Shown here: positions 20,827 to 25,368 of the stretch, in pieces
Numbering within the stretch: position 1 is the first letter of the stretch
How the letters are laid out: each line of letters begins with the position of its first letter
Assembly (NCBI RefSeq): GCF_900112315.1
Contig: NZ_FOLL01000006.1
Span: forward strand, 62,001 to 126,000
Reading direction: 5' to 3'
Source of the DNA: Parapedobacter composti
GTDB taxonomy: Bacteria; Bacteroidota; Bacteroidia; Sphingobacteriales; Sphingobacteriaceae
Length of the DNA stretch: 64,000 nt
Notes under the pieces: model-generated
Seen by the model: the letters and a program-made list of their open reading frames with translations, nothing else
Databases searched by the model: none
What the model was told of the DNA's origin: nothing
Translations under genes and position numbers: made by a program

Positions 20827-21651
20827 TTATACCTTTTCATTCTTTATGTATTCGCCCATGATACTGAAGTTGCTGGTATGCTTCAGTACCCGTCGTATAG
20901 CCGCATCGTAATCGGCCTGGTTTTTCCATTCAACATCTACATAAAAATCGTATTCGTTGCGCTTACCCAGTACCGGCATGGATTGAATCTTCGTGAGGTT
21001 AATCTGCTGCTCAGCGAAGCATTGCAATACCGTGGATAGTGAGCCCACCCCATTGCCGGTCTGGAAAGACAACGAAGCCTTGTTTACCTTCGCCTTTTCT
21101 TCCGATTGGGTAGACAGGATGAGAAAGCGTGTGTAATTCTTTTTGTTGGTCTCGATGCGACGTTCCAGAATCTCCAGGCCATAGAGCTTGGCCGCGAGTT
21201 GCGGAGCGATGGCTGCAGTATCTTTGAGTTGCTGCTCGCTTACCTTTTTGGCACTGCCCGCGGTATCCTCACCCTCCGTCACCTGGAACTGCGGATTCTC
21301 TTCGAGGAAATCGTTGCATTGCTGCAGCGCAATAGGGTGCGACTCGACAAACCTGATATCTTGCAGGGTAACCCCCGGTAATGCCATCAGATGCAGTTTA
21401 ATATGGAGGTAAACTTCGCCAACGATGGGGAAACGGTAATCGCGGAGCAGGTTATAGTTGGGGAGGAGGCTGCCCGCGATGGAGTTTTCAATGGCCATGA
21501 CGATGTAGTTGACTTTACCCTGTTTTAACAGTTCACACGTCTTCTTGAACGATTCACACTCCACGGTTTCAATCTGTTCACCGAAATACTTGTAGGCCGC
21601 TTCTTCGTGGAACGAACCCTTGATACCCTGTATGGCTACTTTTAGCTGCAT
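20827..21651 (-). CDS. pheA: Prephenate dehydratase with ACT domain
   Basis: 274 residues: a prephenate dehydratase domain (1-180) with the catalytic NYTRFLIL (Thr-Arg-Phe) motif and a C-terminal ACT domain (about 195-274). It converts prephenate to phenylpyruvate. In Escherichia coli PheA, phenylalanine binds the ACT motifs GALV and ESRP; the corresponding stretches here read GSLS and IQSMP, so allosteric inhibition may differ. It is the first gene of the aromatic operon and has a putative phenylalanine attenuator in its 5' leader. The usual Bacteroidota neighbours, an aminotransferase and prephenate dehydrogenase (tyrA), are missing between it and the DAHP synthase gene. Confidence 0.97.
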   Translation of the reverse strand: MQLKVAIQGIKGSFHEEAAYKYFGEQIETVECESFKKTCELLKQGKVNYIVMAIENSIAGSLLPNYNLLRDYRFPIVGEVYLHIKLHLMALPGVTLQDIRFVESHPIALQQCNDFLEENPQFQVTEGEDTAGSAKKVSEQQLKDTAAIAPQLAAKLYGLEILERRIETNKKNYTRFLILSTQSEEKAKVNKASLSFQTGNGVGSLSTVLQCFAEQQINLTKIQSMPVLGKRNEYDFYVDVEWKNQADYDAAIRRVLKHTSNFSIMGEYIKNEKV

Positions 21652-21669
21652 ATATCGTTAAAAATGGAT

Positions 21670-21704
21670 AATAAAAAAGTCCCGGCTTTTCTTGCCGGGA
21701 CTTT
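21670..21704 (-). terminator. Attenuator terminator in the pheA leader
   Basis: On the minus strand AAAGTCCCGGC, loop AAGAAAA, GCCGGGACTTT forms a perfect 11-base stem, followed by more T residues (run of six including the arm, then ATT). It ends only about 20 bases before the pheA ATG, so it must regulate entry into pheA rather than end an upstream gene; the nearest upstream gene is divergent. Confidence 0.88.
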
Positions 21705-21750
21705 ACATTTATATCGTTTACGCTATCAATGCATATCAATCCCGGCTTTT
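21694..21750 (-). promoter_or_regulatory. Antiterminator pairing region of the pheA attenuator
   Basis: AAAAGCCGGGA at 21750-21740 is an exact copy of the sequence around the 3' arm of the terminator. Its GCCGGGATT part can pair with AAGTCCCGGC of the terminator 5' arm (about nine pairs including one G-U), which would prevent terminator formation. The segment overlaps the last codons of the leader peptide, so a ribosome reaching the stop codon would cover it, while one stalled at the phenylalanine codons would leave it free. Confidence 0.75.
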
Positions 21751-21804
21751 ACCGCTAAAGTAAAAGAATCCAAAAAATCGATATGCGTTGCGCTGTGCTA
21801 TCAT
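21736..21804 (-). CDS. Phenylalanine-rich leader peptide of the pheA operon
   Basis: A 22-codon open frame (ATG at 21804, TGA at 21738-21736) between the promoter and the terminator. Its second half reads RFFGFFYFSGKSRD: five Phe (codons 10, 11, 13, 14, 16) and two Tyr in nine residues counting Tyr8. This is the classic design of ribosome-mediated attenuation, in which scarcity of charged tRNA-Phe stalls the ribosome and lets transcription continue into pheA. The position relative to the pairing segments fits the model. It is inferred from sequence only; no ribosome data are available. Confidence 0.85.
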   Translation of the reverse strand: MIAQRNAYRFFGFFYFSGKSRD

Positions 21805-21822
21805 CTCTTTGATTTGATGTGC

Positions 21823-21852
21823 CAAATGTACGCAAGTTTTTTTTATTGTCAA
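21823..21852 (-). promoter_or_regulatory. Promoter of the pheA leader and operon
   Basis: On the minus strand TTG (21852-21850), a 19-base spacer and TACATTTG (21830-21823) fit the Bacteroidota -33/-7 promoter. Transcription would start near 21819, about 15 bases before the leader peptide ATG. Confidence 0.8.
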
Positions 21853-21950
21853 GAAAAAAATAATTTTTTCGTTGTATGGCTGAAATTTTTGAAATAAAGT
21901 AAGCCGACTGTTACGAAAAACTCAACGTGGTATAATTTTTTACCGATTTT

Positions 21951-21980
21951 CATCTTATCTTCATCTTATCTTCATCTTCG
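21951..21980 (+). repeat. 11-base direct repeats, candidate OmpR-type operator
   Basis: Two exact copies of CATCTTATCTT (21951-21961, 21962-21972) followed by a partial third (CATCTTCG, 21973-21980). The 11-base period equals one DNA helical turn, the usual spacing for tandem OmpR/PhoB-type winged-helix regulators. The repeats occupy the place of a -33 element just before the -7-like box of the next gene, and an OmpR-type regulator, now broken, is encoded 1.1 kb downstream. Confidence 0.6.
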
Positions 21981-21985
21981 TGCTT

Positions 21986-21993
21986 CAACTTTG
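21986..21993 (+). promoter_or_regulatory. -7-like box (CAACTTTG) downstream of the repeats
   Basis: CAACTTTG is one base from TAnnTTTG and begins six bases after the last repeat. A start codon follows at 22016. A weak -7 with an activator site in place of -33 is what an activator-dependent promoter would look like. Confidence 0.45.
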
Positions 21994-22015
21994 TCTTAAC
22001 TAAATTGATAAAGTT

Positions 22016-22513
22016 ATGAAAACGATGTTGATTTCAGCGATAGCAGGGATGGTGATGTCCACTGCTTTCGCACAGGAAAACGGAACCGGAGTGACCGGCA
22101 AAGCAAACACCGCAACCCAGGCCGGAGTTGGTAAGGGAACAACGGCGGTAACTCATGGTATGCAGGGAGAAGCAAAAGCCGGCATAGCGTTGGCCGCACC
22201 GAAGGTGGCAGCGGAAGCCAACGGCAATTCGGTAATTCAGGTAGGCGGAGACATCCAAGAGCTGGCTGTAATGAGCGGAGATGTGATTGGCGATGTGGCC
22301 ATCGCTAACGAGCTGGAGGTATTGCAGCATGCAGAAACGATAAGACTGCAGGCAACGGCGGTTCCGCGTGCGGATGTGGGAAGTGCGGTGGCGGTTCCTG
22401 ACGTGGCAGCCAAGGTGAAGGCGACTGTTAACGCTGTTACGGGCATCAACGTGAAGCCGGTTCCGGTATCGGCAAAAGTTAATATCAGGAACGGCCTGCG
22501 TGTAAAACTTTAA
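22016..22513 (+). CDS. Small exported protein of unknown function
   Basis: 165 residues with a clear signal peptide (MKTMLISAIAGMVMSTAFAQ, cleavage after AFA likely). The mature part is rich in Gly, Ala and Val, with no Cys and no motif I recognise. The C-terminus is basic and beta-prone, ending KVNIRNGLRVKL. The next gene encodes another small exported protein with a similar tail (ALPVKIKL). The gene lies directly behind the 11-base repeats and upstream of the two-component genes, so it is a plausible target of that system. No function is proposed. Confidence 0.75.
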   Translation: MKTMLISAIAGMVMSTAFAQENGTGVTGKANTATQAGVGKGTTAVTHGMQGEAKAGIALAAPKVAAEANGNSVIQVGGDIQELAVMSGDVIGDVAIANELEVLQHAETIRLQATAVPRADVGSAVAVPDVAAKVKATVNAVTGINVKPVPVSAKVNIRNGLRVKL

Positions 22514-22525
22514 TCCGGAAATAAC

Positions 22526-22533
22526 TATATTTG
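22526..22533 (+). promoter_or_regulatory. -7 box (TATATTTG) of the second small exported gene
   Basis: A full match to TAnnTTTG, 13 bases after the upstream stop codon. The predicted leader (from about 22537) holds a 9-base stem-loop (22542-22565 region, arms AATGCCGGC/GCCGGCGTT) and a 14-codon open frame whose TGA overlaps the ATG at 22583. Confidence 0.55.
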
Positions 22534-22582
22534 TTTGCGGAATGCCGGCAGTTGGGCCGGCGTTCCTTCTATCCGGACGGCG

Positions 22583-22948
22583 ATGAGTAACGATGCAATC
22601 CGCATATTGAAATGTCTGGCAATAATAGGGTGCCTGTTTATAGGGAAGCAAGTGTCAGCAAAAGACGACCTACGGTATGCTTATTATGCGGTGGACACCA
22701 CGGCCGTAGCACAGCAGGAGCGACCGTCTCGAGTCAAAGAAGGGAGCCCTGATAAGGCAAACGGAAAAGTGCAGGAAGTGGTAAAGCCCGACGATATCGT
22801 TACTGATGTGCAGCAGGTGGTTAAGAAAGTACCGAAGGCCCGTCGGCAGGCTAAGCCTGTTTCTGTGCCGTCTGTAAAAGTAAAGCCGCCCGTAAAGGTA
22901 AATCCCCCTAAAATTAAAACAGCCCTGCCAGTCAAGATCAAACTTTGA
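22583..22948 (+). CDS. Small exported basic protein of unknown function
   Basis: 121 residues from the ATG at 22583. A hydrophobic N-terminus (ILKCLAIIGCLFIGKQVSA) looks like a signal peptide. The mature part is Lys/Val/Pro rich, with KPVSVPSVKVKPPVKVNPPKI-type low-complexity sequence and the tail ALPVKIKL, similar to the end of the preceding gene's product. The start is chosen at the signal peptide; a TTG at 22535 in frame is possible but would put 16 residues before it. Unknown function; perhaps a periplasmic or surface-bound cationic protein. Confidence 0.65.
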   Translation: MSNDAIRILKCLAIIGCLFIGKQVSAKDDLRYAYYAVDTTAVAQQERPSRVKEGSPDKANGKVQEVVKPDDIVTDVQQVVKKVPKARRQAKPVSVPSVKVKPPVKVNPPKIKTALPVKIKL

Positions 22949-22980
22949 CCGGCCGGATATCCAGATTTTTATTACTTCGA

Positions 22981-23124
22981 ATGAAACTGAACATACTGTT
23001 AGCCTATGCGCTAATTGTGGTGCCTGTTGTCTCAGGGCTGGGCCAAACCGATACCGCGCAGCGCAGAACCTCGTTGACCCTGGCGACTATCTATAGCACC
23101 AATGCCAGCTACTACTGGATTTAG
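22981..23124 (+). pseudogene. Truncated start of an outer-membrane protein gene
   Basis: An ATG followed by a signal peptide (MKLNILLAYALIVVPVVSG) and SLTLATIYSTNASYY, which resembles the beginning of an exported beta-barrel protein. After Tyr-Tyr the frame ends within three codons because the DNA continues as response-regulator sequence. Only 47 codons remain. The rest of the gene has evidently been deleted. Confidence 0.65.
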
Positions 23125-23647
23125 GGTTGCCCGACCGCGACGGCCTTACGGTGTTGCGGGATTGCAAGCAGCACAATCCGGATGCGGCTATCATTATCCT
23201 TACTGCACGCGGCGACCTCGAAGACCGTATTAAAGGGCTTGAAATGGGGCCGATGATTACCTGCCGAAGCCGTTTTCACTGCTGGAACCGCAAGTGCGCA
23301 TGCAAGCCATTGCCCGGCGTAAGTTCGGCCTCCGGGAAGACACGGTGAGCATAGGCGGCTTTGTGGTACACCTGGGTAAACGGCTGGTGACGTGCGGCGA
23401 GCAGGAAATCCCACTCTCGCGGAAAGAGTTTGATATGCTCAGCTACCTGCTCATGCATCGCAACCGGCCGTTAAGCCGGATACAGCTCTATGAGCATGTC
23501 TGGGGCGACTTCGCCAGTGAGGAAAGCGACTCCAACCACATTGACGTGCACATCAAAAACATCCGGAAGAAACTCGGTGAATTTGCGGATGTAAGTTGGT
23601 TGGAAACTGTTAGGGGCATCGGCTATAAGATCAGGGCAGCGACATGA
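23112..23647 (+). pseudogene. Broken OmpR-family response regulator
   Basis: From 23112 one frame reads LLDLGLPDRDGLTVLRDC and ILTARGDLEDRIKGLEMG, the second half of a receiver domain including the phospho-acceptor Asp. The first ~50 residues with the acidic pocket are missing. At 23246-23249 a run of four G shifts the frame; with five G the reading would continue as ADDYLPKPF, which is present in the next frame with the conserved Lys. That frame runs on through an intact winged-helix domain (SRKEFDMLSYLLMHR, HIDVHIKNIRKKL, VRGIGYKI) to the stop at 23647. A GTG at 23294 could still give a 117-residue DNA-binding domain. The stop overlaps the kinase ATG by four bases. Confidence 0.85.
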
Positions 23648-24960
23648 AACTGAATACTAAGCTGACGTTGTATTTCACGCTTTCCAAGCTGGCCATCATC
23701 GGCGTATTCCTGCTCATGCTGCCCTATATTTTTGATTGGATAGCATTGGCTTCCATTGATAATTATTTAAGGCAGCAGGAAAAGAAAGTGTTCGGTACCA
23801 TTCAGGAGAATGGGTTGGAGTATTACCTGCCGGACGATGAAAGCTTTGGTAGCTATACCATGCTTAAAGAAGAATATATTTCCATGGAGCCTGCCAGTCC
23901 GGAAATGGCAGACATTAATCAAGTGGCTGACGGGCAGCGATTGATTGAATCGGACACGTTGAACTATCGTATCTTAAGCCGGACGTTTATTTACGGAAAC
24001 CAACGGTACCTTCTGGAAATCGACCGGACAACCGCCACGATAGCGCAGTATAATCTGGCTATCCGTAAGATAGCGCTCTATGTATTAATCGGACTGGTGG
24101 TGATAACCATCATCCTGGACTTCTTTTTTTCACGGATTATCCTTCGTCCGCTCGGAAAAATCATCAAGACACGCCTTTCAGGTGATGGATTCCCGTTTCA
24201 ACAAGCCCTGCAGCCGATCAAGACTTCTACCCGCGACTTTAAGTTGCTTGACGAATCGTTCATCCAGCTGATGCAGCGCATTCGGCATGCTTTTGACCGG
24301 GAAAAAGCCTTTACGGCCAACGCCTCGCATGAGCTGCTTACGCCGGTGAGCGTGCTGAAAAGTAAGATTGAAAACTTGATGATGACTGAAGGGCTGGACG
24401 AAGGGGTGGGCGAGAAGCTGACAGAGATGATGCGTACCTTGAACCGGTTAAACAAGATTGTGCAATCTATGCTGCTGATAGCGCGTATAGATAATGCACA
24501 GTTCGGGAAAAGGGAAATGGTGGATATCCATGAGGTGGTGGAAGAAATCGCTGAAGAGCTGCAGCACGAAATGGATGCCAAAGCCATTGGTTTCCGAAAC
24601 GAAATGACGCGCAGGGAGCCGTTGCCGAACCTTAACCGGGAGCTGATGTTTCACTTGTTTTCCAATCTTATCCGTAATGCCATCCGTTATAACCGCGAAG
24701 GGGGCAGCGTGGCGGTTACTGACGAGGTGGCCCATGGCCGCTACTGGGTGCACGTCCGGGATACCGGCATCGGTTTCCCCGACGGGTACGGGGATGAAAT
24801 TTTCGAACGTTTCAAAACAGCACACCGGGACCGCAGCCAGGGGTTTGGGTTGGGCCTTTCCATCGTGCGCAGCATCGCCGAATATTTTTCAATCGCCATA
24901 CAGGTAGACTCCGCCGAGGAGGATGGCACTGTCTTTTTTATTGGTTTTCCGTTAGAATGA
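23644..24960 (+). CDS. Sensor histidine kinase
   Basis: 438 residues with two membrane segments (about 10-35 and 145-165) flanking a ~110-residue periplasmic domain. The dimerisation/H-box reads FTANASHELLTPVSVLKSKIENL, the N-box NLIRNAIRYN, G1 DTGIGFPDG and G2 GFGLGLSIV; all catalytic elements are intact. It should autophosphorylate on His and signal to a partner. Its natural partner, encoded immediately upstream with an ATGA overlap, is a pseudogene, so the kinase is probably orphaned unless another regulator serves it. No signal is identifiable. Confidence 0.92.
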   Translation: MKLNTKLTLYFTLSKLAIIGVFLLMLPYIFDWIALASIDNYLRQQEKKVFGTIQENGLEYYLPDDESFGSYTMLKEEYISMEPASPEMADINQVADGQRLIESDTLNYRILSRTFIYGNQRYLLEIDRTTATIAQYNLAIRKIALYVLIGLVVITIILDFFFSRIILRPLGKIIKTRLSGDGFPFQQALQPIKTSTRDFKLLDESFIQLMQRIRHAFDREKAFTANASHELLTPVSVLKSKIENLMMTEGLDEGVGEKLTEMMRTLNRLNKIVQSMLLIARIDNAQFGKREMVDIHEVVEEIAEELQHEMDAKAIGFRNEMTRREPLPNLNRELMFHLFSNLIRNAIRYNREGGSVAVTDEVAHGRYWVHVRDTGIGFPDGYGDEIFERFKTAHRDRSQGFGLGLSIVRSIAEYFSIAIQVDSAEEDGTVFFIGFPLE

Positions 24961-24981
24961 AATGTATAGGCGGAGGAGAGG

Positions 24982-25356
24982 TTAACCCGTTGCGACTGCA
25001 ACCAGCAGGGCGACCCACCCAGCGGCCAGCAACAAGCCGCCAATAGGCGTGACCGGACCGAGGAAACGCCACTTAGCGCCGGAAACTGCGGTGAGGCAAA
25101 GCCCATAGATGCTGAACGAAAACAGGATGGTGCCCGCTATAAATAGGATAGTATAAGGGCCGGGCGAGATGAGTCCGGCGGTTTGTGCAAAACCGGTTAT
25201 CAGTAACGCCAGGGCGTGGTAGAACTGATAGCGTACGCCGGTTTCGAAGCTCTCCCGCTGGTCTGCAGTGAACTTTTTTTTGAGCGCATGAGCCCCGAAG
25301 GCCCCGAAAACTACGGCCGTTAAACCAAAGGCCGCACCGAATAGCAGAGCTAACAT
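24982..25356 (-). CDS. DUF423 membrane protein (YgdD-like)
   Basis: 124 residues with four hydrophobic helices and the family's AVVFGAFGAHALKKKF motif and TPIGGLLLAAGW end. DUF423 proteins are small inner-membrane proteins of unknown role. The start ATG is preceded at four bases by TAACTTTG, and the promoter lies inside the end of the patatin gene. It is nine bases downstream of that gene, so it may be read from both promoters. Confidence 0.9.
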   Translation of the reverse strand: MLALLFGAAFGLTAVVFGAFGAHALKKKFTADQRESFETGVRYQFYHALALLITGFAQTAGLISPGPYTILFIAGTILFSFSIYGLCLTAVSGAKWRFLGPVTPIGGLLLAAGWVALLVAVATG

Positions 25357-25360
25357 ATTG

Positions 25361-25368
25361 CAAAGTTA
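25361..25368 (-). promoter_or_regulatory. -7 box (TAACTTTG) immediately before the DUF423 gene
   Basis: On the minus strand TAACTTTG, then CAAT, then the ATG. With a start site about four bases after the box, the mRNA would begin at or next to the start codon. Confidence 0.55.

Follow-up and report, generated by a model that had tools for sequence, protein, structure and literature searches.

The window, i.e. the whole 64-kb stretch of DNA that was analysed (G000:C44:62001-126000 of a 4.62-Mb genome), contains a damaged operon for small exported proteins and a two-component system, preceded by an array of 11-base direct repeats (Table 1). In intact relatives the gene order A-B-C-regulator-kinase is complete and the regulator carries Response_reg and Trans_reg_C domains. 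Two lesions break the regulator of the window, and its DNA-binding domain and the kinase can still be read. One appears to be a deletion that joined gene C with the regulator; the other would shift the regulator's reading frame. Between the repeats and the kinase there are 1.7 kb in the window, and 2.5-2.9 kb in many of the relatives that have the five genes complete, as expected if some 1.1 kb covering gene C and the start of the regulator had been lost. No functional two-component system of this operon is encoded in the window's genome, the receiver domain being neither intact nor in frame with the DNA-binding domain. A broken OmpR/PhoB-type regulator had been claimed for this gene run by the sequence-only reading, and the receiver and Trans_reg_C pieces found in different frames bear this out.

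Table 1. Features of the repeat array and of the damaged operon, in window coordinates.
Feature	Position	Strand	Basis or comparison
Half-site copy 1 (TTCATCTT), extra copy	21949..21956	+	no counterpart in register in 65 relative sites
Half-site copy 2, first of the canonical pair, where a -33 element would be	21960..21967	+	pair conserved; position relative to the start inferred from PMC9723704 (excerpt)
Half-site copy 3, second of the canonical pair, 11 bases before TTTG	21971..21978	+	pair conserved
-7 box CAACTTTG	21986..21993	+	window letters; octamer composition in relatives
Gene A, exported 165-aa protein, first of the operon	22016..22513	+	first place conserved in relatives
Gene B, small exported protein with segment KKVPKARRQAKP	22583..22948	+	segment shared with the second gene of relatives
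Gene C remnant: first 47 codons, then a stop	22981..23124	+	intact in relatives: 270-310 aa, exported, probably a beta-barrel
Regulator remnant 1: receiver-domain piece with about 47 N-terminal residues missing	23109..23249	+	
Regulator remnant 2, other frame: end of receiver and complete Trans_reg_C; ORF from GTG 23294	23252..23647	+	
Sensor histidine kinase, 438 codons open	23644..24960	+	

Gene A of the window had no match in Pfam or NCBIfam, and in the relative L036 the gene A of the operon was confirmed by Pfam as DUF4382. A short conserved segment resembling KEVPKSRRQxKP, which belongs to no Pfam family, was recovered for gene B in 30 of 55 loci with a crude regular expression; that for gene C matched in 20/55, and both expressions are too crude to show absence.

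The array consists of three full copies of TTCATCTT with a period of 11 bases, the last of which ends 11 bases ahead of the TTTG of the -7 box. Copies 1 and 2 do not differ at any of the 11 bases. Read in a register shifted by two bases, the same array is the tandem of CATCTTATCTT, exact at 21951-21961 and 21962-21972 and followed by CATCTT at 21973-21978. The two exact tandem copies of the sequence-only reading thus stand, and the third unit, which it took as partial, is a full copy in the register used by the relatives. It had also called the -7 box weak, which did not hold: CAACTTTG is ordinary for this group, base 2 of the octamer being A in 58 of 65 relative sites and base 1 being C in 25 and T in 20. 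The available excerpt of PMC9723704 places the TAnnTTTG octamer of Flavobacterium at -12 to -5. Transferred to the window, this predicts a transcription start at about 21998, and half-site copy 2 would then overlie the -33 region. The first ATG after the -7 box is that of gene A.

Within the 64-kb window, the 11-mer has four matches at no more than one mismatch (1.07 expected), only the two of the array are both exact and adjacent, and no further exact tandem copies occur. Across the 61 contigs of the genome (4.62 Mb), TTCATCTTNNCTTCATCTT is found at three places with up to two mismatches, two of which are the array, and the spaced pattern including the TTTG of the -7 box has a single match, in the window. 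Even the relaxed form TTCAT-N6-TTCAT-N14-TTTG gave no second site anywhere in this genome.

Using the kinase as a query on 201 family genomes drawn evenly, we obtained matches at 78 places outside the window, with 38-52% identity and E values up to 2.1e-87, and examined 54 of these loci together with six from a more distant kinase clade. The relatives present two copies, TTCATNTT-N3-TTCATNTT-N11-TTTG, at the same distance to the -7 box as in the window. The 18-position score was built from the window, as two TTCATNTT and TTTG at fixed spacing, with the wildcard at the sixth half-site base chosen after the relatives had been viewed. The 54 ortholog loci, which share common ancestry and are hence not 54 independent draws, scored 18 in 29 cases, 17 in 11, 16 in three and 12-15 in 11, i.e. 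at least 16 in 43/54. Among dinucleotide shuffles, 1 of 1080 reached 16 and none reached 17; three of 104 real control stretches reached at least 16, and these match sites located shortly after the kinase in L068, L071 and L076. The best score in the six contrast loci was 14. In 52/54 ortholog loci we recognised a -7 box preceded by a pair of TTCAT half-sites at a distance of 11 bases from each other, and the pair is also present in three named Chitinophaga loci; in L037 the site could not be recognised. The sequence-only reading had staked its case on the repeats recurring in relatives that keep the regulator, and they do recur there, the regulator being full length at all 54 loci. Over a wider set of relative loci, tblastn and translation showed a full-length, single-frame, stop-free regulator in 63/63, and the idea that it is broken in other species as well was rejected.

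The sites of the relatives lie mostly in intergenic DNA, 20-80 bases 5' of a gene that usually has a signal-peptide-like start, and sites facing both directions are found where two transcription units diverge. In a set of 65 relative sites the half-sites are kept, as are the spacing of 11 bases between them and the distance of 11 bases to TTTG, and the flanks drift. A third in-register unit is missing from all 65, the closest candidate still differing at 4 of 8 bases. The relatives' sites are preceded, at about 11-19 bases, by an A/T-rich tract; in the window this tract is about one 11-base unit farther from the -7 box, so that the best reading of copy 1 is an insertion of one unit, presumably gained in the window's lineage. 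In L090 and L093, about 1.3 kb past the start of second-clade kinases, we observed TTCAT-N6-TTCAT with TTTG and different inner bases, perhaps the site of a paralogous system.

We scanned 60 hand-picked genomes for the exact pattern: that of the window, 46 with the orthologous kinase, eight congeners and five others without the kinase. There were 48 matches in 34/60 genomes, namely the window's and 33 of the 46 with the kinase, the other 13 of these missing it. None was found in the eight congeners or the five other genomes (0/13 without the system), and the reversed pattern gave zero matches in the same 60 genomes. The kinase locus holds 39 of the 48 matches. Four of the nine elsewhere directly precede exported genes: a DUF4382-like protein, named by a similar MTDAPG segment (L097), YYYLPD-type proteins with YYYLPDxExYYYVP (L098 and the minus strand of L100) and a lipoprotein-like protein (L099). 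The other five (L094, L095, L096, L101 and the plus strand of L100) do not. The motif ahead of exported genes outside the operon suggests a small regulon of envelope proteins.

The kinase is present in one of nine genomes of the genus, the eight other members giving no match at E 1e-60 or better, and the interval from pheA to the patatin-like gene is without the operon in the five congeners examined. This interval (21651-25366 in the window; L152-L156) is a variable spot: it is nearly empty in two of the congeners, and in the other three the genes it holds are unrelated.

These observations point to the repeats being, very probably, the binding site of the operon's own OmpR/PhoB-type regulator, an autoregulatory class II site that is orphaned here. 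Two molecules of regulator would sit head to tail on the half-sites beside the -7 box and take over the role of a -33 element by recruiting RNA polymerase, and such binding at the operon's own promoter would put A, B, C, regulator and kinase under positive autoregulation by their two-component system. The geometry of a class II activator site, proposed by the sequence-only reading, finds support in the comparison: there are two head-to-tail repeats with a period of about 11 bases, a fixed distance to the core promoter element (11 bases to TTTG in the window and in the relatives) with overlap of the upstream element, and a cognate OmpR/PhoB-family regulator linked to the site. Binding, activation and autoregulation are inferred from the conserved repeats, their spacing and the link with the system, and the regulator may instead act by repression, which is compatible with the sequence. 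As the regulator appears broken by the deletion and the frame lesion, its site would be orphaned, and the operon is likeliest now mostly silent.

The DNA-binding ORF of the window is uninterrupted, and the recognition-helix region DSNxIDVHIKNIRKK is preserved in it. In 61 columns of this piece that are conserved in the other orthologs, the window alone departs at two, and five more departures are shared with L073, whose regulator is intact. So few lone departures imply that the damage is recent or that this part is still used; a recent loss of the regulator is our best reading. Departures at conserved positions of the kinase (18/108) and binding domain (5/57), against which PheA had 5/101 under a stricter counting rule, first suggested a relaxed decay of both. 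This was dropped, since the window groups with L073 in the kinase tree and many of its departures are shared with that lineage (11 of the window's 19 in the kinase and 5 of its 7 in the binding-domain piece). The placement of L073 as sister of the window's kinase is provisional, with high support but long branches on both sides, and the kinase of the window shares 52% identity with L034 compared with 45% with L073. In the site of L073 (G177) the second half-site is degenerate (TTCATAAT).

The conservation of the binding domain would also be expected if the regulator were not functionally lost, its DNA-binding remnant being made alone and binding the tripled site constitutively, with the operon freed from the kinase. 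In the excerpts available to us, the PhoB effector domain without its receiver binds DNA constitutively (PMC4415409, citing Ellison and McCleary) and binding by the isolated PhoB domain exceeds that by unphosphorylated PhoB about 7-fold (PMC3264566); the restriction of the third repeat to the window's genome, against the 65 relative sites, would fit as well. Nevertheless, translation of the fragment is purely hypothetical, a recent loss accounts equally for the conservation, and the isolated KdpE domain bound half-sites yet failed to activate in vivo (PMC3264566, excerpt). We consider this reading unlikely, and quite improbable its extension, that the breakage created a self-sustaining system in which the remnant domain, helped by a compensatory third half-site, keeps the operon on without the kinase. 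It is rather unlikely, too, that the organism has an unbroken regulator and that the two lesions stem from errors of assembly or sequencing. The frame changes within a short run of G, and kinase, binding domain and site look undecayed, but errors would have to account for a gene that is hit twice, at separate points, once by a clean loss of some 1.1 kb with a fusion, in a 211-kb contig of a genome that is 99.64% complete.

The genome does encode a full-length OmpR-family relative (G000:C53, 41% identity to the regulator of a relative) that might have taken over the site. Its DNA-binding domain averages only 38% identity to the operon regulators, the recognition-helix region is different and the genome has no other site of the relaxed pattern, which makes a takeover very improbable. 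As for a tandem repeat made by chance or slippage and without function, the identity of copies 1 and 2 is what a fresh slippage product would look like, and the extra copy alone may be neutral. Nonetheless, the position, spacing and sequence of the two other copies are conserved in relatives whose flanks are not, and the probability that the array as a whole has this origin is very low; a chance repeat was rejected on the shuffles, the control stretches and the whole-genome counts. We therefore retain the orphaned binding site of the operon's regulator as the preferred reading. For a two-component system that occurs in many genera of Chitinophagaceae, it provides a precise candidate binding site and a small candidate regulon, made up of exported proteins whose function is unknown, DUF4382 among them. 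The window's genome is a natural case of a promoter outliving its activator, with relatives that keep the activator for comparison.

By the curated cut-offs tested, the system is not Pho, Pmr or Por. The intact regulator of L036 reached 155.9 of the 296.2 bits of PhoB, 134.5 of the 270 bits of the Bacteroidetes PhoB model and 184.9 of the 330 bits of PmrA. PorY (NF052314) is the best NCBIfam model of the kinase, with 242 bits for the window and 231 in L036 against a cut-off of 350. The kinase partner here is an OmpR-type DNA-binding regulator and not PorX, the architecture of which is different. Among the matches listed, the partial texts of the literature on regulators and regulons of Chitinophaga and Chitinophagaceae, on DUF4382, on repeats of the OmpR family in Bacteroidetes and on TTCATCTT gave no description of the motif.

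The nearest parallel is the E. coli PHO box, bound by the class II, sigma-contacting activator PhoB and likewise made of two 11-nt head-to-tail direct repeats, with the core CTGTCAT, the GTCAT of which the TTCAT of the window and its relatives resembles (PMC4415409, excerpt). PhoB is also the best NCBIfam model of the window's Trans_reg_C piece, but with a score far below its cut-off. In contrast to the PHO box, the promoter element is the Bacteroidota -7 box TAnnTTTG rather than a -10 box, the half-site is TTCATNTT, the targets are exported proteins of unknown role, and the site of the window has three copies and no intact regulator. Direct repeats with an 11-base period are shared with the sites of KdpE (6-bp repeats separated by 5 bp; PMC3264566, excerpt), PmrA and other OmpR-family members. 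PmrA is the best NCBIfam model of a relative's regulator, below the cut-off, and the half-site sequence differs from those of KdpE and PmrA. On comparative grounds, which support it well, the site very probably belongs to the known OmpR/PhoB-type class, and what sets it apart is its extra repeat and its apparently orphaned state.
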